Positions 10,207-47,356 of a stretch of 64,000 nt of DNA are shown here, in pieces. The stretch is taken from NCBI GenBank assembly GCA_017428785.1, contig JAFRQD010000030.1, positions 62,001-126,000 on the forward strand. The letters are read 5' to 3'. A program made the translations under genes and the position numbers. Under the pieces are notes generated by a model that saw only the letters and a list, made by a program, of their open reading frames with translations, was not told the origin of the DNA and made no database searches. The stretch is from Bacteroidaceae bacterium (lineage in GTDB: Bacteria; Bacteroidota; Bacteroidia; Bacteroidales; Bacteroidaceae). Position 1 is the stretch's first letter, and the number at the start of each line of letters is the position of its first letter.

Positions 10207-10297
10207 AAACGCCGCGTGCGGGGATTGCCATCGCCGCAGCCGGAGATTGCCATCGCCGCACGCGGGGATTTCCAACGCCGCACGCGGCGTTTTTCAT
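10207..10297. repeat. Four-unit 22-base GC element, copy 1
   Basis: Units start at 10210, 10232, 10254 and 10276, each beginning CGCCGC and containing a short palindrome (CCGCGTGCGG, CCGCAGCCGG, CCGCACGCGG), followed by GGATTGCCAT or a variant. AAACGCCGC on the left and GCGGCGTTTTT on the right are inverted copies, so both ends look like terminator hairpins. Confidence 0.9.
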
Positions 10298-10316
10298 TGC
10301 CCCTGGAGGAGATGTC

Positions 10317-11768
10317 TTATTTGACTAACACCTTCTTTTTCTGGAAGATATAGAGACCGCTGTCGAGCTGATGAACTTGCTCGGGTGTGGCAGCCTTCAT
10401 GACCAGTTTGCCCTCGAGAGTATAGACGTCCGACGGGCCGTCTGTCTTCTGAGCGGCAACATTGTTTACAGGCGTAGCGCTGTCGCCCACGGGGAACATC
10501 AGCATGAGTGCGGGCATACCGCTGGCTCCGTAGCTCTCCACCACATCGGTCTCCTTAGTGTTCCTCGCAAAGTTTCCAATCTGGATGCCTCGGGTCTTAT
10601 CCATCGCAACGAATGCCCTCTGGATGTTTTTCTTTATGTGTTCCAGATAAGTGTTTGCAGTTCCTTCGCTCAGGCCACAGTCATAGACCAGCAGCTTGAT
10701 GTACTGTGCATAGATGGCGGCATAGATGCCTTGCTCGTAGCCCGATTCATACTTGAGGATGCCTGTGTTGCCGCACATATTGTTCATCACATAATCTGCA
10801 CCCTTCAATGCCTTCGTCAGGTAGTTGATGTCCTGGGTGAGCTGATAGAGCAGGCAGCTGGCTCCGATGTAGGTGGCCTGATTGTAGAGATGGTCCGTGA
10901 ACTCGGGTCCTCCGCCATGGATGCCGTCGGCCACACGGCCGTTGCTGTTGACCAGCGTGGCGTCGGCCCAGGCATAGATTTCCTTCGCCTTCTCCAGATA
11001 CCACTCCTTGGTCTGCCTTACAGGACGAGTGGCAGTGGGAGTCGGCCTGCCTTCGGGCACCAGACGATGGAGCAGGCATGCAGCGATGACGGTGGGGAAG
11101 TTGATGCAGGCCGAGCGGAAATCGCCGGGCTGATGCGGCTTCGCCTTTTCGATGGGCTGCCATTCCCAGAACATGCCGCCGCCGTACTTGCCTTCGAAGC
11201 GGGCCGGATCGGCATACGAGCCGTCGTCGCCCACCTTGGATGAGCCGTACCATACGCGACAGAAGCTCTTCTCGGAATAGTTGAGGTAGTCCAAAACATT
11301 GAATGTCTCGTAGGCTCGTGCCAAGGCACACGTCCACCACATGATGTCGTCATAGACGAACCAGCCGTTGTTCGTGTCGGGGTTGTGGAAGTCGAAGTTG
11401 ACATAATGTGCCTTCTCGCCTTTGTAGATAGCGTCGTGCAGCGTCTTGTACTTCTCCATGCGCGTGGCATCCTTCTCCTTCTGAGCGCGGTTGTAGGCAT
11501 TGACGACCATGTCGTACATGATGGCCTGGCACCAGATAGCGGCAGCACAGCCCGACTCATCTCCGTCGCGATAGCCGTTGCCGCGGTGGTCGGCACTCGG
11601 CTGCTTCGTGTCGGCCATATAGATGTTGCGTTTTTTGTCAAGGAAAACCTCGTTGAAGTCATCGTAGGCTTTCCATTGTGCAGAGTCTGTGTAGGTGATC
11701 TTCACTTCGGCTCCGGCATCGCAGAAGCATGCCATCAGGCACAGGATAAGGAGTGACAGTTTTTTCAT
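10317..11768 (-). CDS. Secreted glycoside hydrolase family 76, alpha-1,6-mannanase type
   Basis: A signal peptide (MKKLSLLILCLMACFCDAGA) precedes a single alpha-helical catalytic domain. The features are of GH76: ESGCAAAIWCQA, the adjacent acidic pair in FVYDDIMWW, GGGMFWEW, then NGRVADGI and the FTDHLYNQATYIGA segment. The family hydrolyses alpha-1,6-mannan backbones. The last 40 residues form a short beta domain ending GLYIFQKKKVLVK, common on exported Prevotella proteins. It lies downstream of GH92 on the same strand with 70 bases between, so both would act on the same alpha-mannan. It lacks a lipobox, so it is probably periplasmic or secreted. Confidence 0.87.
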   Translation of the reverse strand: MKKLSLLILCLMACFCDAGAEVKITYTDSAQWKAYDDFNEVFLDKKRNIYMADTKQPSADHRGNGYRDGDESGCAAAIWCQAIMYDMVVNAYNRAQKEKDATRMEKYKTLHDAIYKGEKAHYVNFDFHNPDTNNGWFVYDDIMWWTCALARAYETFNVLDYLNYSEKSFCRVWYGSSKVGDDGSYADPARFEGKYGGGMFWEWQPIEKAKPHQPGDFRSACINFPTVIAACLLHRLVPEGRPTPTATRPVRQTKEWYLEKAKEIYAWADATLVNSNGRVADGIHGGGPEFTDHLYNQATYIGASCLLYQLTQDINYLTKALKGADYVMNNMCGNTGILKYESGYEQGIYAAIYAQYIKLLVYDCGLSEGTANTYLEHIKKNIQRAFVAMDKTRGIQIGNFARNTKETDVVESYGASGMPALMLMFPVGDSATPVNNVAAQKTDGPSDVYTLEGKLVMKAATPEQVHQLDSGLYIFQKKKVLVK

Positions 11769-11838
11769 CGTTTCGTGTGTTTGATGAAAGGCCCTGAGAT
11801 CTCAATGTCCCTCAGGGCCTTTCAGGACTTTTTTGACA

Positions 11839-14136
11839 CTATTTCTTTCTCTTTGACTTTGCAGACGGCTTGTACTCCTTGCTGAAAGAATAAGGAGCTG
11901 CCTCGGCACTTGTGCCGCGCTGACGGTTGGGCTGCGACTGCATGGTGTAGTCCATCTTCATGCCGGCAACAAGGTCCGTATGCTTCACATAGTTGACGTT
12001 ATGCTCTGCGCCGTTCACCCTGAGAGCGCCCACATAGCGGTTCTCGTCGCTCTGCTGGGGAGCTGTGATGACCACCTGCTTGCCATTCTCGAGATGGAGT
12101 GTCATCTTCTTGAAGTAAGGCGCACCGAGCACATACTCGCCGCTGCCCGGGCAGACGGGGTAGAAGCCCATAGCCGTGAAGATGTACCAGGCAGATGTCT
12201 GTCCGTTGTCTTCGTCACCGCAATAGCCGTCGGCGTGGGCATTATACATGCGGTTCATCGTCTCGCGCAGCCAGTACTGGCTCTTCCAGGGCTGCCCGCT
12301 GTAAGCATACATATATATCATGTGCTGGATGGGCTGGTTGCCGTGGGCGTAGTTGCCCATGTTCATGATCTGCATCTCGCGTATCTCGTGGATGACGCCG
12401 CCATAGTAGCTGTCGTCGAAGATGGGAGGCAGGATGAACACGCTGTCCAGCATCTGATTGAAGACGTCCTTGCCGCCCATGAGGTCTATCAAACCCTGCG
12501 GATCGTGGAACACGCTCCAGGAGTAGTGCCAGCTGTTGCCCTCGGTGAACGCGTCTCCCCACTTGAAGGGATTGAAGTTGGGCGCCCACTCGCCGTTGGC
12601 AAGCTTGCCGCGCATCAGGTTGTGGCTCTTGTCGAAGAGGTTCTTGTAGTTGAAAGCGCGTTCGGCATACACCTTGATTTCCTTCTCCGGTTTGCCGAGA
12701 GCCTGACCGAGTTTGTAGATGCTCCAGTCGTCGAAGGCATACTCGAGGGTGCGGGCTGCGCTCTCGTTGATGCTGTCGTAGGGAACATAGCCCAGCTTGT
12801 TGTAGGTCTGCCACTGCTTGCGGCCGCTCGTCGTGCGGGGCAGGTCGGCATTGGCACCGTGCTTCACGGCTTCCCAAAGCGCATCGATGTCGTAACCGCG
12901 GATTCCCTTGAGGTAAGCGTCGGCCACAACAGAGGCAGAGTTGTTGCCCACCATGCAGGCACGATGACCCGGCGCGCTCCATTCGGGCAGGAAGCCGCTC
13001 TCCTTATATGCATTCGCCCAGCCTTCCTGCATCTTCTGGCTCATGCTGGGATACATCAGGTTGACGAGGGGGAAGAGCGCACGGAAGGTGTCCCAGAAGC
13101 CCGTGTCGGCAAAGAGATAACCCGGCAGCACCTGCCCGTTGTAGGGGCTGTAGTGCACCACCTCGCCCTTCGCGTTAATCTCAAAGAAACTGCGAGGGAA
13201 GAGGGTGCTGCGGTAAAGACAACTGTAGAAGGTGCGCAAGCGGTCAACATCGCTCATATCCTCCACATCGATGACGCTCAGCACGCGGTTCCACTCCTGA
13301 CGGCCGGCCTCGGAAATCTCCTCGAGGCTCTTGCTGCCAAGCTCCTTGAGGTTCTGCTCGGCCTGCTCAATGCTGATGAATGAGCTGGCGACACGGACAT
13401 TGATCTGCTCGCCGCGCTTTGTCTGGAAGCCGACTGCTGCAGCAGCATGCTTGCTCTTCATCTCGAGGTTCTTGCCCTCTCTGCCTTCGTCGGCAGTCGA
13501 TGTGTAGATAAACGGGCGGTCGAACTGCAATACAAAGTAGTTCTTGAAGTCTTTGGGCACGCCGCCGCTGTTGCGAGTCGTGTAGCCCACCACTTTGTTC
13601 TCACTCGGAATGACCTTCACATAAGAGCCGCGGTCGAAGGCATCGACGATAACGAAGTTCTTTCCCTCGGGCATCGTGAAGCGGAAGATGGCAGCGCGGC
13701 TTGTGGGCGCTATCTCGGTGGTGATGTCATAGTCTGCGAGATAGACCTTGTAGTAATGCGGCTTGCTGACCTCTGCCTTGTGGCTGAACCAACTGGCACG
13801 TTTGTCTTGGTCGTAAATGGGCGCGTCGCCTGCCTCGGGCATGATGTTGAACATGGCGTAGTCGTTCATCCAAGGGCTGGGCTGGTGAGTCTGCTTGAAG
13901 CCGCGTATCTTCTCGGCATCGTAGGTGTAGCACCATCCGTCGCCCATCTTGCCTGTCTGCGGCGTCCAGAAGTTCATGCCCCAGGGCACAGCGATGGCTG
14001 GATAGGTGTTGCCTGTGGAGAGACCGCCGGTGGAATGTGAGCCGACGAGCGGGTTGACATACTGCACAGGGTCGTCGATGGCGTAAGTGCTTACGCAAAG
14101 GAATGTGGCAAAGGCTGCCAGAAAGAGTCTTTTCAT
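11839..14136 (-). CDS. Secreted GH92 alpha-mannosidase
   Basis: After a signal peptide (MKRLFLAAFATFLCVSTYA) come the GH92 landmarks: VNPLVGSHSTGG, TYPAIAVPWGMNFWTPQTG, GFKQTHQPSPWMNDY, ADTGFWDTFRALFPL, HGNQPIQHMIYMY, and YCGDEDNGQTSAWYIFTAMGFYP. The family comprises calcium-dependent, inverting exo-alpha-mannosidases. The 765-residue length and domain order are normal. GH76 follows and DUF1080 precedes it on the same strand. The gap to DUF1080 holds a 10-base CCTAGG array. Linkage preference (1,2 / 1,3 / 1,6) cannot be read from the sequence. Confidence 0.95.
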   Translation of the reverse strand: MKRLFLAAFATFLCVSTYAIDDPVQYVNPLVGSHSTGGLSTGNTYPAIAVPWGMNFWTPQTGKMGDGWCYTYDAEKIRGFKQTHQPSPWMNDYAMFNIMPEAGDAPIYDQDKRASWFSHKAEVSKPHYYKVYLADYDITTEIAPTSRAAIFRFTMPEGKNFVIVDAFDRGSYVKVIPSENKVVGYTTRNSGGVPKDFKNYFVLQFDRPFIYTSTADEGREGKNLEMKSKHAAAAVGFQTKRGEQINVRVASSFISIEQAEQNLKELGSKSLEEISEAGRQEWNRVLSVIDVEDMSDVDRLRTFYSCLYRSTLFPRSFFEINAKGEVVHYSPYNGQVLPGYLFADTGFWDTFRALFPLVNLMYPSMSQKMQEGWANAYKESGFLPEWSAPGHRACMVGNNSASVVADAYLKGIRGYDIDALWEAVKHGANADLPRTTSGRKQWQTYNKLGYVPYDSINESAARTLEYAFDDWSIYKLGQALGKPEKEIKVYAERAFNYKNLFDKSHNLMRGKLANGEWAPNFNPFKWGDAFTEGNSWHYSWSVFHDPQGLIDLMGGKDVFNQMLDSVFILPPIFDDSYYGGVIHEIREMQIMNMGNYAHGNQPIQHMIYMYAYSGQPWKSQYWLRETMNRMYNAHADGYCGDEDNGQTSAWYIFTAMGFYPVCPGSGEYVLGAPYFKKMTLHLENGKQVVITAPQQSDENRYVGALRVNGAEHNVNYVKHTDLVAGMKMDYTMQSQPNRQRGTSAEAAPYSFSKEYKPSAKSKRKK

Positions 14137-14150
14137 TGTGTTTTGCTTTT

Positions 14151-14203
14151 TAGGATGTCCTAGGCTTTCCTAGGAAGACCTAGGCTTTCCTAGGAAGACC
14201 TAG
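14151..14203. repeat. 10-base CCTAGG array between GH92 and DUF1080 genes
   Basis: Units CCTAGGCTTT and CCTAGGAAGA alternate from 14159 to 14203. The same decamers recur on the other side of the DUF1080 gene at 14992-15035. Confidence 0.85.
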
Positions 14204-14205
14204 TG

Positions 14206-14967
14206 TTACAGTTCCTTTATCTTTACGTTCTTGAACCAAACCTCGTTGCCGTGGTCCTGCAACAGGATGCGTCCGTCGCGGTTTCCGAAGTCGGGCCAGT
14301 TCTTGTACTTGCTGTAGGCAACCAGGGCGTTCCACTCCTGGTTGTTGCGCTCGTACTCCAGCATCTTCACGCCGTTGAGCCAGTGCTCCACATGGCTGCC
14401 CTTGACGATAACCATTGCTGTGTTCCACGCTGTGATGTCGAAAGGCTTCTGTTCGGGAGCGGGGATGAGGTCGTAGAGAGAGGCGAGCTTGCGGTTGCCC
14501 TTCACGCCGAGCTTGGCATCGGGATGACGCAGGTCGTCGAGTATCTGGAACTCGCAGCCGATGGCACTTCCCTCGCCCTGATTCATGTCGGGGTCAACAA
14601 AGTACTTGATGCCGCTGTTGGCGCCCTCGGTTATCTTGAAGTCCACCTTCAGGATGAAGTTATGGTAGGTCTTGTCGGTCACGATGTCGCCGCCGTTGCC
14701 GCTCTCGGCTCCGTTGGCAGCCTCAACCTTGAGCACACCGTCCTCTATGCGCCAGCCCTTCTCGGGGAAGGTCTGGAGCTTTGCGCCTCGCCAGCCGTTC
14801 GTTGTCTTGCCGTCCCAAAGGAGCTTCCAACCCTCGCGCTGTTCCTGCTCAGAGAGCACGTTGTCTGTTGTAGGAACGGGAGCAGGCTGCTGGGCTACTG
14901 TCTTCTTTACTTTTGCTGATGCAGGCAGGATGGCCAGCATCGCCAGGGCTAATACTATCTTTTTCAT
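14206..14967 (-). CDS. Secreted DUF1080 (3-keto-disaccharide hydrolase family) protein
   Basis: A signal peptide ([18 protein letters not shown]) is followed by the concanavalin-like DUF1080 fold: [61 protein letters not shown] and GRILLQDHG. Members of this family, studied in Bacteroides thetaiotaomicron, act with Gfo/Idh oxidoreductases in a route that oxidises a sugar at C3 and then cleaves the glycosidic bond by elimination. The Gfo/Idh gene immediately upstream on the same strand supports that role here. Substrate unknown. The gene is bracketed on both sides by the same CCTAGG decamer array. Confidence 0.85.
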
Positions 14968-14991
14968 TGTGTTTGTTTTATTTATAGGAGA

Positions 14992-15035
14992 CCCTAGGAA
15001 GTCCTAGGCTTTCCTAGGGAGTCCTAGGTTTTCCT
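14992..15035. repeat. 10-base CCTAGG array upstream of DUF1080
   Basis: CCTAGGAAGT, CCTAGGCTTT, CCTAGGGAGT and CCTAGGTTTT follow one another with period 10, between the Gfo/Idh stop and the DUF1080 start. Confidence 0.85.
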
Positions 15036-15038
15036 CGT

Positions 15039-16466
15039 TTAGTCAATCTTGTAGAACTCTTCCCAGCCGCGGCGTGGGGGCATGCCGGTGAGCATGGCGT
15101 TGGCGAACTCGTTGTTTGTGAACTTCTTTGTCCTCGGGTCGAAGAAGAGCTGGGTGTTGAGGCGCTGTGCGATGACACCGAGGCAGAACACCTGGCAGAG
15201 CACGCCGGCTATCTGGAAGGGCGAACGCGTCTTCTCTTCTCCCTTGCAGGCACGCAGGAAGTTGACATAGTGGTTGCTCGGGCTCTTGGGCACCTGCGGC
15301 AGCTTGTCCTTCATGGCCTCTGCCTTCTCCTTCGGGATGATTTCGAGCGTGCTGCCATGGCTTGCGCCCTTGAAGGTGAGGTCGCGCCCGTAGATGATCT
15401 TTCCGGGGTTGATCTTCTGCTGCGTGTACTCGCCCTGACCGCTTGCGGGGATGCCGTCGGCCAGTTTGCTCTCGCCGTAGCCCTCGGGCAGTGGCGGCAG
15501 GTTGTCGGTGCCGTCGTACCAGATGACGTCGCATGGAGGCATGTTGCCGCGAGCGCCGAAGCGGAACTCTATGGTGCTCGAGAAGGGATAGAAGAACTCG
15601 TTGTGGTTCTTCGCGTACTTCATGTTAATCTCGTAAGGCAGTCCGAGGTTGAGGAACTCGTGCACCGTGTCGAGCAGATGAGCGCCCCAGTCACCGAGAG
15701 CTCCCATGCCGAAGTCGTACCAGCTGCGCCAGTCGCCTTGATGGTAGAGCTTGCTGAAGTTATGGTAGCGGATGCCGCCGTGCCAGGTGTCGTAGTCCAT
15801 GCCTTCGGGGATGGGATCGCCCTCCGGCATCTTCGTCATGTTCCAGTCGTACTTGTGCCAACGGCGGTCGTTGTTCATGTGAGCCACCACCTTCGTCACA
15901 TCCTTGATGATGCCGGCTTCCTGCCATGCCTTGAACTGGAAGTAGTTGGCCTCGGAGTGTCCCTGGTTGCCCACCTGAGTGGCGAGTTCGGGATGACGGT
16001 TTGCCATCTCGATGAGGATTTCGCCCTCTTGGAAGGTACGGATGAGGGGCTTCTCGCAATAGACGTGCTTGCCGTGCTTCATGGCAGCCATGCAGACGAA
16101 GAAATGCGTGTGGTCGGGCACGCTGACTGCCACAGCGTCGAACTTGTCGCTGTACTCGTCAAAGAGCTTGCGGAAGTCGGTGAACCTCTTTGCGTCGGGG
16201 TACATGTTCAGCACCTTCTGGCACTGCTTGCCCTGCAGGTCGACGTCGCAAAGCGCCACCACATCCACCATGTTCGTCTTCGCGAACTCGTCGATGTTCT
16301 GCTGACCGCGGTTGCCGATACCGATGTAGGCAATCTTCACTTTCTCACTCTTGGGCGCTGCAGCAGGCTGCTGTTTCTTCTTGGCAGCCAACATCTCGCC
16401 GGGAGCAAAAGCCATGCCGGCTGTTGCCATTCCCATTCCTTTTAGAAAATCTCTTCTTGTTGACAT
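15039..16466 (-). CDS. Exported Gfo/Idh/MocA family oxidoreductase
   Basis: The N-terminus STRRDFLKGMGMATAGMAF has the twin-arginine pattern, so the protein is probably exported folded with its nicotinamide cofactor. The dinucleotide-binding loop is IAYIGIGNRGQQNI; the EKP motif follows in HGKHVYCEKPL. A C-terminal beta-sheet domain completes the 475 residues. In the 3-keto-glycoside route, such enzymes oxidise the sugar at C3 for the neighbouring DUF1080 lyase or hydrolase. It is the first gene of the glycan block and has an excellent promoter. Family certain; pathway inferred from the pairing. Confidence 0.9.
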   Translation of the reverse strand: MSTRRDFLKGMGMATAGMAFAPGEMLAAKKKQQPAAAPKSEKVKIAYIGIGNRGQQNIDEFAKTNMVDVVALCDVDLQGKQCQKVLNMYPDAKRFTDFRKLFDEYSDKFDAVAVSVPDHTHFFVCMAAMKHGKHVYCEKPLIRTFQEGEILIEMANRHPELATQVGNQGHSEANYFQFKAWQEAGIIKDVTKVVAHMNNDRRWHKYDWNMTKMPEGDPIPEGMDYDTWHGGIRYHNFSKLYHQGDWRSWYDFGMGALGDWGAHLLDTVHEFLNLGLPYEINMKYAKNHNEFFYPFSSTIEFRFGARGNMPPCDVIWYDGTDNLPPLPEGYGESKLADGIPASGQGEYTQQKINPGKIIYGRDLTFKGASHGSTLEIIPKEKAEAMKDKLPQVPKSPSNHYVNFLRACKGEEKTRSPFQIAGVLCQVFCLGVIAQRLNTQLFFDPRTKKFTNNEFANAMLTGMPPRRGWEEFYKID

Positions 16467-16507
16467 AATAATTGCTTTTTATTGTTGTATTTCGTATTTT
16501 CTGCGCA

Positions 16508-16538
16508 CAAAGTTAGCAAAAATAATCGCATCATCAAA
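16508..16538 (-). promoter_or_regulatory. Promoter of the glycan block
   Basis: On the minus strand TTTG (16535-16538), exactly 19 bases, TAACTTTG (16508-16515); the start codon is about 40 bases on. It is the only strong promoter seen for the genes from 16466 down to 11839. Confidence 0.87.
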
Positions 16539-16607
16539 GGTTTTGCAGTCAAAAGATGTACAATGCCGCTTATTTCGTTAATTTATAGGGTTTACGGGCA
16601 TAAAAAA

Positions 16608-16695
16608 CGCCGCCTGCGGAAATGGCAAACGCCGCAGCCGGGGATTGCCATCGCCGCACGCGGGGATTGCCAACGCCGCACGCGGCGTTTTGCAT
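16608..16695. repeat. Four-unit 22-base GC element, copy 2
   Basis: Units start at 16608, 16630, 16652 and 16674. The left end reads AAAAAACGCCGCC and the right end GCGGCGTTTT. It lies between the promoter of the glycan block and the terminator of the next gene pair. Confidence 0.9.
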
Positions 16696-16732
16696 CCCCC
16701 TACAGCCCCATAAAAAAGCCCATACAGATAAC

Positions 16733-16764
16733 AAAAAAGCAGGAGGTGCAACAACACCTCCTGC
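16733..16764 (-). terminator. Rho-independent terminator
   Basis: A perfect 10-base stem (GCAGGAGGTG/CACCTCCTGC, 16739-16748 with 16755-16764) and a 6-base loop are followed on the minus strand by six T. It ends the transcript carrying the large secreted protein and the small protein. Confidence 0.93.
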
Positions 16765-16792
16765 TCTCTTTATCGAACTGACAAACAGCAGA

Positions 16793-16963
16793 TTACCATT
16801 CGTCGCTCCAAATGTTCTTGTCTGTAATCACATTGTTGTTCTCTTCCTTCGCCCAACCGCCATTACCGCCTTCAACCGTAGTTTCTGACATGTTAATGAG
16901 AAGACTTTCATTAATTTGTATCTTTATGACGAGAGCCTCAGGGCTTTGATATGTTTTCTTCAT
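16793..16963 (-). CDS. Small MKKxYxxPE protein, 56 residues, unknown function
   Basis: This short frame runs ATG (16963) to TAA (16793), 40 bases after the large secreted protein gene and just before a strong terminator. It begins MKKTYQSPEALVIKIQI, then ESLLINMS, a Gly/Asn-rich middle (EGGNGGWAKEENNN), and an acidic aromatic end (NIWSDEW). There is no signal peptide. The layout is shared with the 60-residue protein at 58967-59149, also directly after a large secreted protein. Proteins of this shape are common in Prevotella-like genomes but I know no function. A precursor of a modified peptide, or a partner of the upstream protein, are guesses. Confidence 0.75.
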   Translation of the reverse strand: MKKTYQSPEALVIKIQINESLLINMSETTVEGGNGGWAKEENNNVITDKNIWSDEW

Positions 16964-17003
16964 TTCTTTAGGGAATTAAGAGTTCTTACTATCATAAACA
17001 TTC

Positions 17004-20306: not shown

Positions 20307-20438
20307 AACACGCATGCAGCTTGAAAAATCCTCATGTGAACTTCGCGAAATCCTCATGTGAACTTTGCCAAATCCACATGTGAACTTTGCCAAATCCACG
20401 CGTGCTTTTCAAGCTATCCACATATCGTCTTCAAACAG
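20307..20438. repeat. 22-base array, TCCACATGTGAAC type, bracketed by an inverted repeat
   Basis: Units start at 20329, 20351, 20373, 20395 and 20417; 20307-20328 is a diverged leading unit. Three central units carry TCCTCATGTGAACTT or TCCACATGTGAACTT. AGCTTGAAAA (20318-20327) and TTTTCAAGCT (20406-20415) are perfect inverted copies enclosing the array. It fills the gap downstream of trpS; the rest of 20061-20306 shows only the promoter box. Confidence 0.88.
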
Positions 20439-20453: not shown

Positions 20454-21610
<1,157 letters not shown>

Positions 21611-21616
<6 letters not shown>

Positions 21617-28427: not shown

Positions 28428-29951
<1,524 letters not shown>

Positions 29952-30053
29952 TTAGGTTGTATTTTGCAAGGCAGGATTTTTTCCCTTATTTTACCTTATT
30001 TTATAATAACTGGCTCTTACCTTGAAAATCGCGCTGTGAGGGGGTGAAAAATT

Positions 30054-30141
30054 CCGCGTGCGGCGATGGCAATCCCCGCGTGCGGCGATGACCATTTCCG
30101 CGTGCGGCGTTGCCAATCCCCGCACGCGGCGTTTTTCACTC
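30054..30141. repeat. Four-unit 22-base GC element, copy 3
   Basis: Units start at 30054, 30076, 30098 and 30120, in the opposite orientation to copies 1 and 2. The right end is GCGGCGTTTTT. It lies in a divergent gap, upstream of both guaB and the iron-sulfur gene, so it cannot simply be a 3'-end terminator there. Confidence 0.9.
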
Positions 30142-30226
30142 CCCTGTACGGCCATTTTTATCCTTCTGCCCGACATCTGCTTCTTCACCCCACAAAAATA
30201 TCTTTTTTCGTAAAAATATGCGGTTT

Positions 30227-30261
30227 TTTGCATGGCCGTATACTATTTTTTATTATTTTTG
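30227..30261 (+). promoter_or_regulatory. Promoter for the iron-sulfur protein gene
   Basis: TTTG (30227-30230) and TATTTTTG (30254-30261), 23 bases apart, 36 bases before the ATG. Confidence 0.6.
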
Positions 30262-30297
30262 CAGCGGAAAGTACACACTCTATAATCATTTTCATTT

Positions 30298-33335: not shown

Positions 33336-33372
33336 AGACATTGTGAATCAACCCCTTAGGTGACACCCAAAA

Positions 33373-33460
33373 CGCCGCCTGCGGGGATTGCAAACGCCGC
33401 ACGCGGAAATGGTCATCGCCGCACGCGGGGATTGCCAACGCCGCAGCCGGGGATTTTAAC
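33373..33460. repeat. Four-unit 22-base GC element, copy 4
   Basis: Units start at 33373, 33395, 33417 and 33439. The left end is closed by AAAACGCCGCC; the right unit ends GGGGATTTT rather than GGCGTTTT. It lies between convergent genes, just ahead of a clear terminator. Confidence 0.9.
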
Positions 33461-33489
33461 TCCCTGCTGAGGCATTGTAAAACAACAAA

Positions 33490-33524
33490 AAAACCCCTTC
33501 CCGGAATCCCGAGAAGGGGTTTTT
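33490..33524. terminator. Bidirectional terminator
   Basis: AAAACCCCTTC and GAAGGGGTTTT form an 11-base stem with runs of A and T on either side, between the convergent aldo/keto reductase and GH92 genes. Confidence 0.93.
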
Positions 33525-33535
33525 CGTATAGCCTG

Positions 33536-36823: not shown

Positions 36824-36843
36824 GCCGGCGGCATCGAAAATCC

Positions 36844-36931
36844 CCGGCTGCGGCGATGCCAATCCCCGCACGCGGCGATGCCAATCCCCGGCTGCGGCGA
36901 TGACCAATTCCGCACGCGGCGTTTCAACACC
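36844..36931. repeat. Four-unit 22-base GC element, copy 5
   Basis: Units start at 36844, 36866, 36888 and 36910, alternating CCGGCTGCGG and CCGCACGCGG cores. The right end is GCGGCGTTT. It lies between two plus-strand genes. Confidence 0.9.
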
Positions 36932-41000: not shown

Positions 41001-42247
41001 CCGGCTTCGAAGATGCTCAAGATTACATCCTGAAAGACTTTGGTGATGCATTAAAGGAATATGTACATGTATACTTCAAGAAATTCGATGAATGCTGGAC
41101 TGTAAGCACTCTTAAGGGCTTCAACTTCGACGGCATAACACTTGTTGCCGATGCCAACAATCTCATCCTGAAATGGGAGGCAAGACTCTCTAGCTTCACA
41201 ATGAATGGCAATGGCTATCGCTTCGACATTCCTGCTTCAGGCAGCGTTGATATCATGTTCGACGAGGGTCTGACAAACAGCGGAGCCGCAGTTACAATTC
41301 CCGATGCATACAAGTTCATTCAGGAGAAGTTCAATGTTAAGAGAACTACTCTTGTAATCAAGGGCGACCTCACAGACGGTCTGACAGCTATGCTCGTTGT
41401 TCCTGCAAGGAGTGATTCCGATGGTCAAATCGCTGCTTATGCAACTGCCGACCTGACCGACACCTTTGTTAACTATGCAGGTGGCGTTATCACCCTCACA
41501 AAGAACACAGGAGCAACTCTTGATATTGCAAGTGTAGCAGCAAATGTACTTAGCACTCTGGCCACAGAAACAGCTCTTGGAAATCTGGAAGGCACAAAGG
41601 GTTCTGTTACCATTCCTGTTGTAACAGAAGTTTCTAAGGACCTCAGAGATCTGATTAAGGGTCAGGACGATGTTATCAAGACACTCACAGCACTCGTTGA
41701 AAACCTGAATCACTTCCTTGGTCAGGTAATGACTTACGAGCCTCTGATTAACTCTAACATCGACGATTTCCTGAATTCAAATCTTATTAAGTACCTGAAG
41801 AAGATTGACCATACCACAATGTGGTTCTTCCAGTCCATCAACCGTCGCTTCGGTCCGTTCATCGTTGCCAGCAACGACAATAAGGGCTTCAAGCGCATGA
41901 GCTTAAGTCCCACTATTCCTACTGAGATGGAGAAGAGTGGATTGAAGCTCTATCCCACCACGAAGAACATGGAGCTCATCGTTCCTATCGCAAGAAAGCA
42001 CGTTGCTGTTACCAATGTCTTCGTTGACGGTGACCTCACAAAGAACGCTCAGGATGGTGATATAGCCTGCATAAAGAAGCTGTCTGCAGCCAACCAGGAC
42101 GATGAACTCAATGTAGTATTGGACGGCACAACACGCTGCGTTCATGTTAACAACATGGATCCAGGCTACATTTACGAGGTTGCTTACTCTGTACTCGACT
42201 TCGAAGGCAACATCTCTACTTACAAGACCTACATCAAGGTTAAGTAA
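38066..42247 (+). CDS. Very long coiled-coil surface lipoprotein
   Basis: The 1393-residue protein begins with a lipoprotein signal (MKKKLFQIIMLLVATVSVGSFVSC); the cysteine at 24 would be lipidated. Residues about 30-740 are almost wholly coiled coil with repeated LEEQ, NIKNLQ and AYDKAVEAFNKAD-like heptads and short breaks (YVKKSDLDAYATDAEL). From about 745 the protein is beta-rich (FSIPANIQSNMLVAYYG) to the end (YEVAYSVLDFEGNISTYKTYIKVK). It looks like a stalk plus head on the outer membrane. Codon use is strongly biased, which suggests high expression. The OmpA gene follows after 33 bases. Function unknown: adhesin, S-layer-like or structural are possible. Confidence 0.8.
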   Translation: MKKKLFQIIMLLVATVSVGSFVSCKDTNEDLYNELRVQTLDDNAKLADALNARIKDLQDQIDLMKKWEDQLCKCDPAALLKSANDYTNAEIAKLKAIVDALGDKADAATVADLTTLVNNINARLGILEGQNLDNRVATLEAAQGLLKEQVDKLEKALEEVRTGTDGIQSILQRLATAEEAIKNGKTAAEQLAGLINDAQGTADDALALAQKAFDNAQEALKFADRIAALEAGLDAEKGAKELAKEALQRANDAYDLATIIQGTANTNKENIATLQGDLKKLGELVEQYKGTLDGDISDLKERVARLEEQAKNIEKNANAIKDIENRLDGIDVSITAASDKANDAYDKAVEAFNKADANEKTISELSNIVTENKTNIGNLQKDVEDLQEAVKQISVNTTNIKNLQDALNTTNGNVSKLSEKYDDLESEVSDLRTELATIKGDCANNLLQAKLYVQEEIEALKTWITTELKDYVKKSDLDAYATDAELNKAVSDLIEKINAGDQTLGQALSDLTDRVGNNETAIWYINEALKYLAAKSEDFVSEDDLKTWAELLKASTGEQVANAKADILKELLDKLAATVDAAKTEINNNINNNINIAIGSLETGVTEARLKELIESMFGTSDPADLKDLAGLIARVTALEAADKTLAAKIQANKTTLGEVKYKVEKLTERVEKLEYDVRGLTKRMERVESKLTEINTKVEKLTKDVAAIQSYLAKQITGITIQGTNNPMFGSFSIPANIQSNMLVAYYGTPANVEFPTTDDAKYIRKAEVLTAKDWEMITMTPFEQFKYSGTRTLVNEDENGKAYAGKVYVTVNPTTVDATGLNLEIVNSQDEPSLITLSPLKKSYETLKFGLEPTRADNGFYEASAFVSKKQIENVDGIEFKEEDLTNLIEDARSEIRDMVETFFKSTGATGHLDKVATDMYQVLRSLSLERKGLKCPFKDINDKDQAIYSQYNLAATAVKPLTLGSLKFLEDYDTFPGFEDAQDYILKDFGDALKEYVHVYFKKFDECWTVSTLKGFNFDGITLVADANNLILKWEARLSSFTMNGNGYRFDIPASGSVDIMFDEGLTNSGAAVTIPDAYKFIQEKFNVKRTTLVIKGDLTDGLTAMLVVPARSDSDGQIAAYATADLTDTFVNYAGGVITLTKNTGATLDIASVAANVLSTLATETALGNLEGTKGSVTIPVVTEVSKDLRDLIKGQDDVIKTLTALVENLNHFLGQVMTYEPLINSNIDDFLNSNLIKYLKKIDHTTMWFFQSINRRFGPFIVASNDNKGFKRMSLSPTIPTEMEKSGLKLYPTTKNMELIVPIARKHVAVTNVFVDGDLTKNAQDGDIACIKKLSAANQDDELNVVLDGTTRCVHVNNMDPGYIYEVAYSVLDFEGNISTYKTYIKVK

Positions 42248-42280
42248 TAACAAATCCACTTTCTGAACTAATAATAAGTA

Positions 42281-43432
42281 ATGAATATGAAACTTAAGAA
42301 GATATTAATGTCAGCTGCCCTGCTTGCCGGATGCCTCACAGCATCCGCGCAGCAGCCGCAGGCTACAGAAGCAAAGCCCTGCGAGGCATTTGCTCCTCAC
42401 TGGTATGTTCAAGCTCAGATTGGCGGACAGTACACCCTGGGCGAAGTAAAATTCAGCGACCTTCTTTCTGGCAACCTCCAGTTCGCAGGCGGCTACAACT
42501 TCACTCCCGTATGGGGTCTGCGTCTTGCTCTTGACACATGGCAGAGCAAGGGTGGTACTGACCTTGGCTATCTTGGTCTTGGCACACAAACCTGGAAGTA
42601 CAACTTCATCGCTCCCACACTCGACGTTACTTGCGACCTGACCAACTGGATTTATGGTTACAAGGCAGACCGTATCTGCAACTTTGGCCTGTTGGCTGGC
42701 TTAGGTGCAAACATCGGTTGGAACAACGACGATGCTGCTGCAGTAAGAAATCTTATCTTTGCTACAGGCGGGACTGCCATGGATCCTGCACACACGATGT
42801 CTCTGCTTTGGGACGGCACAAAGACCCGCTTCGTAGGTCGCTTTGGTGCTTACCTCGACTTCAAGGTTAGCCGTCGCGTTGCTCTCGGCCTCGAGCTGAA
42901 CTGCAATGCTACCTCCGACCACTACAACTCAAAGAAGGCAGGCAATGCCGACTGGTACTTCAACGCACTGGCTGGTGTAAAGGTAAGACTTGGCAAGCTC
43001 GCTCCGAAGAAGGCTCCAGAACCAATCGTAGTAGAGAAGATTGTCGAGAAGATTGTTGAGAAGCCCGTAGAAGTTCCTGTTGTTAAGGAGCCCGAGACTC
43101 CGAAGCGCGAGACTCTGCGTCGCGACATTTTCTTCACACTCCGTGGTTCAGAGGTCAGCAGGACCGAGATGACGAAGGTAGAGGATGTTGTGGCTTACAT
43201 GAACAAGTATCCCGAAGCAAAGGTTTCCGTAACAGGTTACGCTGACAAGGGTACTGGCAATCCTCGCCTCAATGTTGGTTACGCTCAGAGGCGTGCTGAT
43301 GTTATCACCAACATGTTGGTTAACAAGTTTGGCATCAGCCGCAGCCGCATCATTTCAGACAGCAAGGGTGATACCGTTCAGCCCTACGAGCAGAACGACC
43401 TCAACCGTGTAACTATCTGTATTTGCGAGTAA
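42281..43432 (+). CDS. OmpA-family outer-membrane protein
   Basis: A signal peptide (LKKILMSAALLAGCLTASA) is followed by an eight-strand-type barrel (HWYVQAQIGGQYTLGEVKF to YFNALAGVKVRLGKL), a Pro/Val/Glu hinge (VEKIVEKIVEKPVEVPV) and a peptidoglycan-binding OmpA domain from about residue 285 (YPEAKVSVTGYADKGTGNPRLN and AQRRADVITNML). It links outer membrane to wall and is usually abundant. It is co-transcribed with the coiled-coil lipoprotein. A 12-base hairpin follows the stop. Confidence 0.93.
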   Translation: MNMKLKKILMSAALLAGCLTASAQQPQATEAKPCEAFAPHWYVQAQIGGQYTLGEVKFSDLLSGNLQFAGGYNFTPVWGLRLALDTWQSKGGTDLGYLGLGTQTWKYNFIAPTLDVTCDLTNWIYGYKADRICNFGLLAGLGANIGWNNDDAAAVRNLIFATGGTAMDPAHTMSLLWDGTKTRFVGRFGAYLDFKVSRRVALGLELNCNATSDHYNSKKAGNADWYFNALAGVKVRLGKLAPKKAPEPIVVEKIVEKIVEKPVEVPVVKEPETPKRETLRRDIFFTLRGSEVSRTEMTKVEDVVAYMNKYPEAKVSVTGYADKGTGNPRLNVGYAQRRADVITNMLVNKFGISRSRIISDSKGDTVQPYEQNDLNRVTICICE

Positions 43433-43458
43433 CATTTAACTCTATTTAAATACTTAAC

Positions 43459-43499
43459 TTCCCCCCGTCATTCTGCTGCAAGCGTAGTGGCGGGGGGAA
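43459..43499 (+). terminator. Hairpin between the OmpA gene and the next gene
   Basis: TTCCCCCCGTCA and TGGCGGGGGGAA pair over 12 bases with one G-U, with a 17-base loop. There is no T-run after it, and the next ATG is 13 bases on. Partial termination or protection of the ompA message is more likely than a full stop. Confidence 0.65.
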
Positions 43500-43511
43500 T
43501 AATTATCATCA

Positions 43512-44732
43512 ATGAAAAGACTCTACACTTTATTTCTTATAACCTCGCTGAGTTTGGCGAGTGCTATTGCACAGGATAGAGGTACTGGAATCATAGGCAA
43601 CTATTACTATCGTGTCCGTAACTTTGGTCAAGACCGCTATGTTTATGTAAGGGACAACTATGACGAATCTGACATAGCTCGTCAGCAACCAGACTTCGGG
43701 GCTATTGAGTTGTGGAAGGATGCCAGTAAGACTGTTTACGACCCAGGAAGCGTTATCTATATTGTTAAGTTTAATGATGGAACCTACAACCTGAAGGCTC
43801 AAGGCACGGGTGTAAAGGAGCTCACTGGCTATTCCGTCCACATCAAAGGATTGACGGGTGTCACGACAAAGGGGCTTTATGAGGTTTATGTAACGAAGGA
43901 TGGAGTGACCCAATATCTTGACGATGAAAGAACTGTTTCACGAGATGACGGCCAGTTGGGCATACACAACGACGACATAAGATATCGTTACTGGATTGTC
44001 GATAAAATCGAGACCGACCATGCCACCAACTATTTTGGCGTCAAGCCCACGATTCAGTTAAATGGCAAATACTATCGTCCTTTCTATGCAGATTTTCCTT
44101 TCAAGCTTGCTTCTCCAGGCATGCATGTCTATTATGTCAATAGTGTTAAAGGCGACGAGGCCGTATTGAAGGAAGTGGAAGGCGAGATAGCTGCCGGCAC
44201 TCCTGTTGTCATAGAATGTGCATCGGACAATCCCTCCAACAACCGCTTAGAGCTTCTCTACACCAAGCCTGCCAACCTATCGGGCAACAAGCTTGCAGGC
44301 ATCTATTTCTGCAATCAGAATAGAGGCAAGAACTCGAAAGAGGCATATAAGGTGTTCGATGCATCCGCTATGCGAGTCCTCACGATAGCCAACGGCAAAC
44401 TCGTTCTGAGCAACAACGAGAATCAATTGCTCAGCTCAAAGCATTTGCAAGTGGTGAATACCATTGACTGGGATTCCGACGACGAAGACGAAGTCTCTCT
44501 TAATTGCATTCCCGCCAATACATGCTACCTCATGGCAGATGCCGGCACCCCTGCCACACTCAACATCCGCTTCGAGGGCGTAGGCATCGACGAGATTCTT
44601 GCCGAGAAGAAAGACAAGTCTGCAGAAGGCGTCTATACTTTGAGCGGCACACAGCTCCGTGCGACCAACGATGTGCAGGGTCTGCCCGCAGGTCTGTATA
44701 TTGTAGGCGGAGTAAAGTTTGCCATCAAATAG
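43512..44732 (+). CDS. Exported protein with C-terminal sorting-like tail
   Basis: A 406-residue protein with a signal peptide (MKRLYTLFLITSLSLASAIA). Its body is beta-type (NYYYRVRNFGQDRYVYVRD, YSVHIKGLTG) without recognised motifs. The end GVYTLSGTQLRA followed by GLPAGLYIVGGVKFAIK is the Prevotella-type secretion tail (compare GH76 here). It sits within the envelope cluster, so a surface-associated role with the coiled-coil protein and OmpA is plausible but not shown. Confidence 0.72.
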   Translation: MKRLYTLFLITSLSLASAIAQDRGTGIIGNYYYRVRNFGQDRYVYVRDNYDESDIARQQPDFGAIELWKDASKTVYDPGSVIYIVKFNDGTYNLKAQGTGVKELTGYSVHIKGLTGVTTKGLYEVYVTKDGVTQYLDDERTVSRDDGQLGIHNDDIRYRYWIVDKIETDHATNYFGVKPTIQLNGKYYRPFYADFPFKLASPGMHVYYVNSVKGDEAVLKEVEGEIAAGTPVVIECASDNPSNNRLELLYTKPANLSGNKLAGIYFCNQNRGKNSKEAYKVFDASAMRVLTIANGKLVLSNNENQLLSSKHLQVVNTIDWDSDDEDEVSLNCIPANTCYLMADAGTPATLNIRFEGVGIDEILAEKKDKSAEGVYTLSGTQLRATNDVQGLPAGLYIVGGVKFAIK

Positions 44733-44779
44733 CCTCATCCCTACCCTCTCTCCTTTGGGAGGGGGCTGAGGTGGGGGAT
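44733..44779. repeat. Intergenic CT-rich inverted repeat
   Basis: CCTCATCCCTACCCTCTC faces GGGAGGGGGCTGAGGTGGGG. This is an intergenic copy of the element found in frame in queA and the iron-sulfur gene; it also looks like a partial terminator. Confidence 0.7.
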
Positions 44780-44812
44780 TATATACATTATAATATATAA
44801 TACGGTAATAGA

Positions 44813-45988
44813 ATGAAGAAGTTTGGAGTATTCCTTATCGTTTTGTCGCTGACAACAGTCATGCCGGCTCAGGACGAGACAAAAGACAAGCAGTCCATCA
44901 CCTCCCTGATGGCTGAGAAGGGCATTTTGAACCACATGGATATCGGCGTCAACGTCGGCACTTTAGGCATTGGCATTGATGTGGCGATGCCTGTAGGCGA
45001 CTACGTGCGCATCCGTGCCGGCTACAACTATATGCCTCGCATCACTCTCCACTCCAACTTCAACATCGAGACGAGCAACGGCAGTTACAGCAATCTTTTG
45101 TCGAAGGTGGACAAGATCAACGACAAGCTTGCCGAGTATAACATTGACTTGAACACGCCTGGCTATGAGGAATACAAAAAGATGTACGACAAATTCAGCA
45201 AAGTCGAGAAACGCGACTATGTGACGATGGGCCTTAAGCCCAATGTACATCAATTCAAGTTCCTGGTAGATGTATTGCCCTTCAAGAACAACAAGCATTG
45301 GAGCTTCACGGCCGGTTTCTTCGTAGGGCCGTCCGACGTGGGCGATGCTTGCAACCTGGAAAAGGAAACACTTATCCTGGAGGGCATCAACGCATACAAC
45401 TCCATTTACAAGGACTATCCTCAGAACGGCATAAATGGTGCATTCCTGCGTCCCCGAGACCAAGCGCAGGACGACCCCTTCTTCAGGACCGGCCTCGCAG
45501 GCTTCAAGCTCGGCACGTTTGACGATGGAGAAATGGCCATGATGGTTCCGGACAAGAATGCTACCGTGCGTGCTGAAATGTCGGTGAACAAGTTCCGCCC
45601 ATATCTTGGCTTCGGCTACAACACGCACTTGTCGAAGGACAAGAAGTGGAACATGAATGTCGATGCCGGCATCCTGTTCCTTTGCGGCGCTCCCAGCATC
45701 TATGTTGACAATGTCTATAAGATTGACGCAAGCGAGATACGCTTCGACGAAGAAGGCTGGTACAAGGGAGGCATGGGCTTCGACACCGACAATAACTACT
45801 ACGGCGACATCGTGCGCTGGAATCAAGTGGAATGGAGATACGACCCTTGCGGCGAATTGCGGAACCATGTCGACATGGTCCACGACCTGCACGACATCCC
45901 GGGCAAGGTGGGCAACATGGTGCACACCGCCTCCAAGTTCAAGGTCTATCCGAACGCTTCCGTCACTTTCTCGTACAGACTGTTCTAA
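44813..45988 (+). CDS. Outer-membrane beta-barrel protein
   Basis: A signal peptide (MKKFGVFLIVLSLTTVMPAQ) is followed by a protein with alternating strands (VGDYVRIRAGYNYMPRITLH, KHWSFTAGFFVGPSDVG, KFRPYLGFGYNTHLSKDKKWNMN) that ends in aromatic residues (ASVTFSYRLF), as barrels recognised by the BAM machinery do. 391 residues. Last gene of the envelope cluster. No specific function visible. Confidence 0.8.
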   Translation: MKKFGVFLIVLSLTTVMPAQDETKDKQSITSLMAEKGILNHMDIGVNVGTLGIGIDVAMPVGDYVRIRAGYNYMPRITLHSNFNIETSNGSYSNLLSKVDKINDKLAEYNIDLNTPGYEEYKKMYDKFSKVEKRDYVTMGLKPNVHQFKFLVDVLPFKNNKHWSFTAGFFVGPSDVGDACNLEKETLILEGINAYNSIYKDYPQNGINGAFLRPRDQAQDDPFFRTGLAGFKLGTFDDGEMAMMVPDKNATVRAEMSVNKFRPYLGFGYNTHLSKDKKWNMNVDAGILFLCGAPSIYVDNVYKIDASEIRFDEEGWYKGGMGFDTDNNYYGDIVRWNQVEWRYDPCGELRNHVDMVHDLHDIPGKVGNMVHTASKFKVYPNASVTFSYRLF

Positions 45989-46016
45989 GCAACACCTCTC
46001 CTCCATTAGGGGAAGG

Positions 46017-46055
46017 AAAAGCCGCTCCCGAGCATGATCTCAGGAGCGGCTTTTT
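46017..46055. terminator. Bidirectional terminator
   Basis: AAAAGCCGCTCC and GGAGCGGCTTTTT pair with a 14-base loop, between the convergent barrel and smalltalk genes. Confidence 0.92.
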
Positions 46056-46071
46056 GTTTGTGCGGGCTATG

Positions 46072-46182
46072 TCAGAACGGGCCGCAGCCCATGCACGAGG
46101 TGGTGGTGAGTGCCGTGAGGAATGCGGTAAGTGCCGCCACGAGAACCTTCACCACGAGTTCCACGATGTTGTTTTTCTTCAT
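46072..46182 (-). CDS. Smalltalk-family small protein, 36 residues
   Basis: ATG at 46182 to TGA at 46072. The sequence MKKNNIVELVVKVLVAALTA then a Thr-rich stretch and SCMGCGPF has the shape of the smalltalk family: a short basic start, one hydrophobic helix and a Ser-Cys near the end, possibly a minimal lipoprotein. It lies 18 bases after the NPLNIR gene and before a terminator. Smalltalk genes in Bacteroidales usually sit beside HU-like and wall-lytic genes, as here. Function unknown. Confidence 0.85.
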   Translation of the reverse strand: MKKNNIVELVVKVLVAALTAFLTALTTTSCMGCGPF

Positions 46183-46200
46183 AATGTCTGATGTTTAGGG

Positions 46201-46599
46201 TTAAGAGATTTTGTAGAGACAGAAGCCACGGACAATCGTTGCGCTGTCGAGCAGGATGCCACACTCCTGCCGGGCCATGGCACGGACGAGCAGGGGCCAG
46301 TCGCTTTCGCTGAGGAGTTGCTGTCCGCCGAAGCCGGTCCAACGGCACACATTGCGGACATACTGCTCGGTGCCATTCTCGGAAGGCGGTGCCCAACGGC
46401 TGATGATGTCTCTCACGCAGAGCGCATTGTATCTTCGGGCGTAAGTGCGAAGGATGCAGAAGGCGGCTCTCAATCCCCACTCCACGCTATCGAACCGCAC
46501 ATACTTCCTGTCGGTCTGCAACGCCGATTGTCCTATCCATTTAGTACCTGCAACCCGCCGGATGTTCAGCGGGTTGCAGTTTCTGAGTCCTCGATTCAT
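46201..46599 (-). CDS. NPLNIR-type protein (PRD1 P5-like / lytic-domain family)
   Basis: 132 residues beginning RGLRNCNPLNIRR, with YVRFDSVEWGLRAAFCILRTYARRY, ISRWAPPSENGTEQYVRNV and WPLLVRAMARQE. Proteins with this pattern are annotated as structural protein P5 or as muramidase-like in Bacteroidales; their activity is not settled. In smalltalk cassettes the third gene is usually an N-acetylmuramoyl-alanine amidase; here this protein takes its place, which supports a wall-related role. Twenty-seven bases after the HU-like gene, same strand. Confidence 0.78.
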   Translation of the reverse strand: MNRGLRNCNPLNIRRVAGTKWIGQSALQTDRKYVRFDSVEWGLRAAFCILRTYARRYNALCVRDIISRWAPPSENGTEQYVRNVCRWTGFGGQQLLSESDWPLLVRAMARQECGILLDSATIVRGFCLYKIS

Positions 46600-46626
46600 A
46601 GGATGAGAAGGGTCTTTAGGGACAGT

Positions 46627-47088
46627 TTACTCGAGCCCGTGGATGGTGTCGGTGTTCCTGATAACCTCGATGGCATCCCCCTGTGCGGAACGGCTGGGCA
46701 CGAGCTGGAAGGTGGCTTCGGTGCGGAGGTTGGTGAAGTTCTTGCCGGGAGTCCAGCCCACTACGACGTCGTCGATGTTTGCCACGGAGAAGTCGTCGGT
46801 GGTCACGGCACCCGTGGTCCTGAGACGGGGCTGGAAGTCGCCGAGGTCGCCCAGCTTGACGCGCTTGCCCTCGAGCATGAGTTCGCGCAGGCAGCCGACG
46901 GCGATGGTGAGGAGCCCCACGATGTCGCCCTTGTCATAGACGCTGCCGTGGTTGGCGATGTGCTTGGCAAAGGCATTGATGTCGATCACCTCGCTCACCT
47001 GCGCTACACCGTAGGCCTTGGTTTCGGTGATGTTTTCCTTCTTGGTTCCGGGCTTGGTGCCCATAATTGCGATACTGTAGTTAATCAT
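46627..47088 (-). CDS. HU-like DNA-binding domain protein
   Basis: Start chosen at MINYSIAIMGTKPG (47088); the longer frame from 47115 adds residues outside the family pattern. 153 residues: a beta start (TETKAYGVAQVSEVIDINAFAKHIANH), the HU dimer helices (DIVGLLTIAVGCLRELMLEGKRVKLGDLGDFQPRL) and the DNA-arm region (IDDVVVGWTPGKNFTNLR). It belongs to the HU-like family found with smalltalk proteins rather than to the nucleoid HU. First gene of a three-gene cassette. Whether it binds DNA in the cell is not known. Confidence 0.83.
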   Translation of the reverse strand: MINYSIAIMGTKPGTKKENITETKAYGVAQVSEVIDINAFAKHIANHGSVYDKGDIVGLLTIAVGCLRELMLEGKRVKLGDLGDFQPRLRTTGAVTTDDFSVANIDDVVVGWTPGKNFTNLRTEATFQLVPSRSAQGDAIEVIRNTDTIHGLE

Positions 47089-47268
47089 AATAAGTAATGT
47101 TGAAAGGTTAAACAATAAGAGTGTTGAATCTCAGAAGCGCTTCTGTCTATATATACTCTGCTACCTGCCATTTGTTAACCCCAGCATCGTATTTTTCTTA
47201 TGGAAAGAGGAAAAAATTCTGACCCCACATTATAATATATTTAATGCGCCTGCGCGCGTATAGAAACG

Positions 47269-47356
47269 CCGCGTGCGGCGATGACAATCCCCGGCTGCGG
47301 CGATGGCCAATTCCGCGTGCGGCGTTGCCCATCCCCGCACGCGGCGTTTTCGGCCC
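47269..47356. repeat. Four-unit 22-base GC element, copy 6
   Basis: Units start at 47269, 47291, 47313 and 47335. Left end GAAACGCC, right end GCGGCGTTTT. It lies between the start of the HU-like cassette and the 3' end of the HU gene; the gap 47089-47495 also has a 9-base array and a terminator. Confidence 0.9.

Follow-up and report, generated by a model that had tools for sequence, protein, structure and literature searches.

A 64,000-nucleotide stretch of the genome of a Bacteroidaceae bacterium (contig JAFRQD010000030.1 of assembly GCA_017428785.1, positions 62,001 to 126,000; from here on the window) holds between its genes six copies of an array of four 22-base units with palindromic GC cores. 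This palindrome-array family, F1, belongs to a larger class of 22-base arrays found in a rumen genus of Bacteroidales. The class has a fixed period, palindromic cores, an intergenic position and a number of units that is near-fixed for F1 in the genome of the window and for a second family, F2, in two genomes; comparable sites in related genomes carry different units.

The genome (G000) is of 2.98 Mb in 71 contigs and 84% complete, and the counts given for it are, unless otherwise stated, from a 437 kb sample consisting of the window (C24:62001-126000) and 20 further stretches. The genus is represented by metagenome-derived genomes, many labelled as from ruminant rumen or gut, and the closest named record, as judged at one protein (93% identity), is the metagenome-assembled genome RUG12391 (G114, ~89% complete). 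A scan of the sample for local periodicity gave 66 arrays at period 22, while no other period between 12 and 39 had more than nine, and since first-order Markov resampling of the same 437 kb gave no period-22 array in any of five runs, these arrays are not due to chance. Thirty-three of the 66 are other than F1, and the clearest among them are the families F2 (TCATGATGCAGCAATTGATTTA) and F3 (AAATCCACACGTGAACTTTGCC).

Number and anatomy of the F1 units

All six F1 arrays of the preliminary description were found within 10 bases of where it had placed them, with cores beginning at 10212, 16610, 30054, 33375, 36844 and 47269 and three further cores following each at exactly 22-base steps. When the core is strictly defined (CCGCnnGCGG or its CCGCAGCCGG variant, on either strand), the sample has 32 runs of four and 12 single cores, with no runs of two, three, five or any other length. 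Looser cores in runs of at least three give 33 arrays, of which 32 have four cores and one, degenerate, has three, and on the looser count the sample and the loci from pattern searches together hold 50 distinct copies: 48 of four units, one of three (C24:138531, the degenerate copy, outside the window) and one of five (in L026), with a few degenerate relatives, such as those at L048 13930 and L050 9785, left uncounted. The claim that there are never three or five units is therefore nearly true in G000; it is untrue in G114, where there are copies with three cores as well as with four. Likewise the wide variation in unit number, or the lack of a fixed spacing, which, it had been said, would make the constant four a coincidence was not seen in G000 and was seen in part in G114. 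The genome-wide search proposed at the same time, made with a two-unit F1 pattern, gave 190 matches in G000 (113 forward and 77 reverse) and none with the reversed pattern as control; scaling from the sample puts the number of copies genome-wide at an estimated ~160.

The F1 unit can be written as CGCCGCACGCGG-RRATTGCCAT. Its second half (ATTGCCAT, ATTGCAAT) is a weak dyad, and dyad centres accordingly recur every 11 bases, because a period-22 repeat of a near-palindrome is also palindromic half a period away; being a necessary result of any palindrome array of this period, the alternation was dropped as a finding in its own right. In 42 of 48 copies the first unit has GT or CT at its centre, and in 39 of 48 the last has ACG or AGG there; the two ends are therefore, for the most part, inversions of each other. 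A degenerate C-rich/G-rich dyad (CCnCnnnGnGGGG) is centred 22 bases beyond the end cores, and information declines outward from the array while keeping to the 22-base grid. Variants occur in blocks (GG or AA; ACG or AGC), a pattern more suggestive of whole unit types being exchanged than of point changes.

Other families with the same period

F2 also has an outer dyad 22 bases out, of F1-like GC type. Of the double-ended F2 copies, 22 of 23 in G000 and 18 of 19 in G114 have their ends exactly three units apart (40 of 42 together, 11 and 18 single ends respectively having been set aside), and the two exceptions are shorter by one and by two units. Non-F1 arrays as a group score 13.8 out of 22 for dyad symmetry as against 11.2 for shuffled units, with 24 of 74 at p<0.05. 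What F1 and other arrays have in common is the motif TTG(S)CAA, whose density is 7-8 per kb in them and 0.7 per kb in those intergenic parts of the G000 sample that lack arrays; a spacer dyad TTGCAA or TTG(S)CAA is present in 27 of 65 ‘other’ arrays, while 100 shuffles gave a mean of 6.2 and a maximum of 11.

Arrays in relatives and different units at comparable sites

The F1 pattern is present in six of 139 genomes of the genus, its own included, with 190 matches in G000, 106 in G114, 18 in G146 and one or two in three others. Other genera of the family (114 genomes) and other families of the order (16 genomes) gave no match. Period-22 arrays of whatever sequence were seen in five of 13 same-genus genomes and none of seven others of the same order (at most 20 kb of each being sampled). 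Among the syntenic loci of relatives, the 21 genus-like ones (244 kb) have 24 arrays at period 22, the next most frequent period being 21 with 16, and in the 21 remaining ones, from more distant Bacteroidales, period 22, with eight arrays, is less prominent. The divergent gap at 29907-30297 has a period-22 array (at least 29 of 44 positions matching) in 11 of 21 genomes, as counted after removal of three duplicate genomes; three of these arrays are of F1 type (those of the window, L071 and L117) and eight of other sequence, and the other ten genomes have none or weaker repeats.

Contig C24 has 14 F1 arrays, 11 of them in gaps that are, by eye, comparable with G114 (those at 29024, 37663 and 144669 are not). 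Six of these gaps have an F1-type array in G114 too (72212, 78610, 92054, 98844, 109269 and 138531, the last degenerate in both), two have a different 22-base array (19918 and 151618, the latter with an end of the F2-prime type described below) and two have no array at all (10078 and 95375). For the remaining one, C24:127559, the G114 gap is empty and the F1 copy can be aligned over ~147 bp, flank included, across the neighbouring gene: the copy lies after that gene in G000 (stretch C24:126180-127700) and before it in G114 (stretch C1:143566-145104), and has carried along ~40 bases of similar right flank. The flanks of the gaps are too diverged between the two genomes for the junctions of F1 presence and absence to be located. 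A looser automatic count in G114 gives three, four and five cores in seven, 14 and two arrays, though there the core pattern can probably slip by two bases; irregular spacings in G146, probably slips of a loose core pattern, were not used.

F2 offers a case of apparent unit replacement. Its pattern is present in 20 of the 139 genomes, with 22 to 95 forward matches in six of them, and has no match in G114, which has 56 matches to an F2-prime end pattern. F2-prime arrays have three units, with ACATGT in place of TCATGA, and occupy four of the compared gaps of G114. G000 and G114 have in common 18 consecutive bases of left flank at C24:4598, after which every unit differs, three of TCATGATGCAGCAATTGATT type in the former being matched by three of ACATGTATGTATAATTGTAG type in the latter. 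F2-prime is also present in the gaps matching C24:67018 and C24:121292, where the right flank alone is close, and at C33:7052, where both flanks match, keeping in mind that this locus is a biased choice since it was drawn from loci chosen for F2-prime. At the F2-like site C24:58189, G114 has an unrelated 22-base array instead, and C24:22847 could not be compared. With F2 ends three units apart in both genomes but the units different, the number of units and the ends are retained as the unit itself is altered.

Position between genes

Gene calls made with an in-house script place all six F1 arrays of the window between genes, as had been described, and the midpoints of all 33 sample arrays are intergenic, 21 in co-oriented, eight in convergent and four in divergent gaps. 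Among gaps of at least 130 bases, F1 is held by 20 of 84 co-oriented, six of 21 convergent and four of 33 divergent ones, and the shortfall in divergent gaps does not reach significance (p 0.15). Within co-oriented gaps, 18 of 21 F1 arrays are closer to the upstream stop codon (p 0.0015), at a median distance of 29 bases.

A DNA-level interpretation

The reading favoured here, tentatively and at somewhat less than an even chance, is that F1 is an interspersed non-coding repeat of the sort represented by bacterial interspersed mosaic elements (BIMEs) and BOX elements, homogenised within the genome and probably acting at the DNA level as an array of sites for a dimeric protein, spaced two helical turns apart. 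In living cells DNA has been reported to have ~11 bp per turn, on which 22 bases would correspond to two turns, and the suggestion in the preliminary description that the spacing reflects two turns is strengthened because unrelated families have the same 22-base period. Each unit would be a putative homodimer site, with four dimers (or three, as in F2) on one face of the DNA; the TTGCAA/TTGGCAA dyad that recurs in many spacers may be a common contact, and the variable palindrome one specific to the family. Copies of one class would overwrite one another within a genome, by gene conversion or by re-insertion into existing copies, such that a new unit could sweep through the class, with selection perhaps keeping spacing, dyad symmetry and unit number. 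Some movement of F1 is likely, as the copy now across its gene at C24:127559 suggests. A likely role would be the marking or buffering of the borders of transcription units, as has been proposed for BIMEs.

Several results weigh against this. The test for unit dyads is significant in just nine of 33 F1 arrays and in the 24 of 74 others mentioned above, and 22% of period-27 and 13% of period-18 arrays also pass it at the 5% level. F2 arrays lack the TTGCAA excess. As read individually, some F1 copies of G114 with three or four cores have one 21-base spacing, and the copy that changed gap between G000 and G114 behaved as a mobile element would. When normalised for promoter space, the test of F1 position gives p 0.053, so the bias could be mere avoidance of promoters, and for non-F1 arrays no significant bias was found (13 of 18, p 0.10). 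Both flanks are close in just two of the four F2 gap comparisons, one of these preselected for F2-prime. Covariation between dyad arms at individual loci is weak and mixed (for the outer unit of F1, p 0.11; for that of F2, p 0.04 in G000, 0.92 in G114 and 0.33 together), and the binding protein is putative; these two points are the main weakness of the reading.

A broader proposal, rather unlikely at present, is that of a genus-wide chromosomal system with several classes of 22-base array, each having its own unit number and its own dimeric protein, in which the palindrome would be exchanged genome-wide in step with the specificity of the protein while position, period and unit number persist. 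Eukaryotic centromere DNA and recombination hotspots offer analogies for such turnover of co-changing sites and proteins.

Alternative explanations

The preliminary description also raised the possibility of a mobile element, and F1 may be a miniature inverted-repeat transposable element (MITE), that is a non-autonomous element with inverted ends (AAAACGCCGCnTGCGG) whose transposase is encoded elsewhere and binds the internal repeats. This is unlikely, though by no means far-fetched. The ~160 estimated copies, the inversion of first and last units as in the terminal inverted repeats of MITEs, and the amplification in a few species (the other 136 of the 139 genomes have none to two matches) are what would be expected of one, as are the two of 11 comparable gaps without an array in G114 and the copy now on the other side of its gene at C24:127559. 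However, no target site duplication was evident: with lengths of 2-6, 8 and 9 and boundaries 2-49 bases out there was no excess over shuffled pairing (three shuffles each), and nothing similar to a CATTGT direct repeat seen by eye to flank the array at 33369 stood out in the same test. Conservation fades along the 22-base grid with no sharp end, and comparable sites are not just empty or filled but also carry arrays of a different unit. A 301-base F1 query had no match among plasmid and phage records and F1 had a single match in the 2.9 million viral contigs of IMG/VR, in which F2 and F3 had none; origin from a virus, plasmid or phage was rejected on the strength of these searches. The one match, at L144 4835-4930, is near the end of the fetched stretch, and the idea that it is host flank beside a tRNA was dropped when ARAGORN found no tRNA there. 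A partner of the type that serves repetitive extragenic palindromic (REP) sequences, the REP-associated tyrosine transposase (RAYT), was also rejected, as matches to the Y1_Tnp family do not follow F1: 22 of 61 genomes searched (G146 was not among them) have one, F1-rich G114 has none, and the single match in G000 is in a 3.3 kb locus without an F1 core or period-22 array. Three of six Y1_Tnp loci fetched hold a period-22 array of other sequence, compared with ~0.5 per locus expected from the density in G000. One, the locus of a Y1 transposase-like gene of G013, has an array of about nine 22-base units (GCCATAAGCTCACGAGTCATCG, L142 1029-1228), and in L139 and L141 period-22 arrays are also beside such genes.

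A structured RNA had been suggested too, and a transcribed hairpin at the 3′ ends of mRNAs, acting as terminator or stabiliser, would fit the strong folds predicted for four F1 strands (z -2.9 to -4.0), the AAAACG...CGTTTT ends and the closeness to upstream stops; the transcribed strand also folds lower in 24 of 39 arrays and G-T mismatches outnumber A-C ones by 82 to 61, neither being significant (p 0.13 and 0.094). It is nevertheless distinctly improbable. The strand-consistent hairpin with T-run 3′ of genes that characterizes intrinsic terminators was not found, F1 having the orientation of the upstream gene in nine cases and the opposite in 12, with four copies sitting mid-gap between divergent genes. 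The array at 33369 has a separate terminator-like hairpin next to it, and a similar one is present in array-free relatives, for instance G114 (L071), L074 and L082, in which that gap (33336-33535) is without an array. The earlier judgement that simple termination does not suffice is upheld by these observations. Mirror covariation was not found: in 48 F1 copies the strongest associations link neighbouring columns, and the left flank of an element matches its own right flank no better than that of another element. A long RNA hairpin as the main constraint was rejected on both grounds; Rfam covariance models gave no match in the window at gathering score. A neutral minisatellite, with the arrays as slippage products surviving by chance between genes, is very improbable. 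G000 and relatives do carry arrays of 7, 8, 9, 10 and 18 bases, and one gap is 445 bases long in L090 and 423 in L092, a difference of exactly 22, but slippage predicts broad ranges of unit number and period, in contrast to the near-fixed numbers of F1 and F2 and the dominance of one period, and units are common to distant copies.

Relation to known repeats

REP sequences and BIMEs of enterobacteria, Pseudomonas and Stenotrophomonas are described in PMC2817692 as species-specific extragenic palindromes of high copy number, set in regular arrays of which some are hybrid, and BIMEs are reported there to bind gyrase and IHF. F1 shares the high copy number and the extragenic palindromes (33 of 33 sample midpoints, ~160 copies estimated), but its units are contiguous 22-base direct repeats, whereas the REPs of that account alternate in orientation with spacer segments; its unit number is near-fixed per family and no cognate RAYT was seen, G114 being without Y1_Tnp. 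BOX elements of Streptococcus pneumoniae, as portrayed in PMC3049150, are intergenic repeats of composite build, tandem inner modules being flanked by outer ones, in which the number of boxB modules varies and the length is from 67 to 637 bp. The fixed grid and near-fixed number of F1 contrast with that variable boxA-boxB(n)-boxC layout, a distinction by description and not by sequence. In how it works F1 resembles BIMEs and BOX; in host group and location it resembles the BrickBuilt MITE of Porphyromonas gingivalis, also of the Bacteroidales, which PMC4596501 gives as an intergenic short tandem repeat within small inverted ends, with a 23-nt unit, 1 to 22.8 units, 19 copies in ATCC 33277, and leader and tail segments with inverted repeats like those of the IS5 family. 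F1, with a 22-base unit and four units in 48 of 50 copies, lacks that defining layout.

F1 is thus a variant of interspersed intergenic repeats and not a member of REP/BIME, BOX or BrickBuilt, lacking a tested defining feature of each. Iterons and TnsB-site arrays also consist of binding sites of ~22 bp repeated in a short array, but they lie at replication origins or transposon ends, whereas F1 is scattered at chromosomal gene borders. A search of the full-text literature, with coverage that leaves out most subscription papers, found no description of 22-base arrays of fixed unit number in Bacteroidales.

Features of the window

The arrays of the window are collected in Table 1. The period common to its F2 and F3 arrays and F1 had been overlooked in the preliminary description.

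Table 1. 22-base arrays of the window and an adjoining hairpin
Feature	Position	Strand	Context or composition
F2 array, three 22-base units around TCATGA	5018..5093		ends GTTCATTG and CAACGAAC; GC dyad (GCCGCACGCG) directly outside, left
F1 array, 4 units	10206..10293	+	co-oriented gap between D-Ala-D-Ala peptidase (M15) gene and GH76 gene, both -
F1 array, 4 units	16604..16691	+	co-oriented gap (own gene calls)
F3 array	20313..20421		22-base units of type AAATCCTCATGTGAACTTTGCC between AGCTTGAAAA and TTTTCAAGCT
F1 array, 4 units	30048..30135	-	divergent gap between IMP dehydrogenase (-) and 4Fe-4S protein (+)
F1 array, 4 units	33369..33456	+	convergent gap between aldo/keto reductase (+) and GH92 (-)
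Terminator-like hairpin with A and T runs, separate from F1	33487..33523		adjoins F1 array 33369..33456
F1 array, 4 units	36838..36925	-	co-oriented gap between deaminase and CAAX-protease-like gene
F1 array, 4 units	47263..47350	-	co-oriented gap (own gene calls)
F3-like array	53291..53377		22-base units AATCCACACGAGGATTT + variable bases
F2 array, three units	59292..59367		GC dyad (CCGCATGCGG) directly outside, right

Arrays of shorter period are also present. Intergenic 10-base arrays of CCTAGG palindromes are at 14139-14215, of which G114 has an orthologous copy with identical layout, and at 14975-15045; arrays similar to this type are inside the 33336-33535 gap of the relatives L076, L078 and L085. 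Nine-base arrays around CTTAAG are at 21550-21616, with a shorter counterpart in G114, and at 47367-47412. There is an 8-base array (AAAAGGTG) at 9237-9390 and a 7-base one (CAACGGA) at 4041-4118, the latter inside a called gene (3482-4909). Outside the window, the degenerate F1 array of C24 is preceded by an extended stretch between genes that carries the inverted repeat AGCAAATCAGCCGATTTGCT (C24:137929-139004, L035 ~11929-13004), and blocks that by eye are partly similar occur in G114 and in a 726-base gap of L078, L085 and L115.

Significance

What sets these arrays apart is that unrelated families in one genome have the same period, two of them near-constant in unit number, with units that are replaceable as a set at comparable sites. 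The constraint is thereby a measurable one, as the sequence of the unit is free and the spacing is not. If a binding protein is found, and if the pattern sampled here holds, the many natural arrays of the genus would provide a ready-made series of co-evolved sites. Should the arrays turn out to be selfish, such wholesale exchange of units, with the sites staying where they are, would still be an uncommon way for bacterial repeats to evolve.

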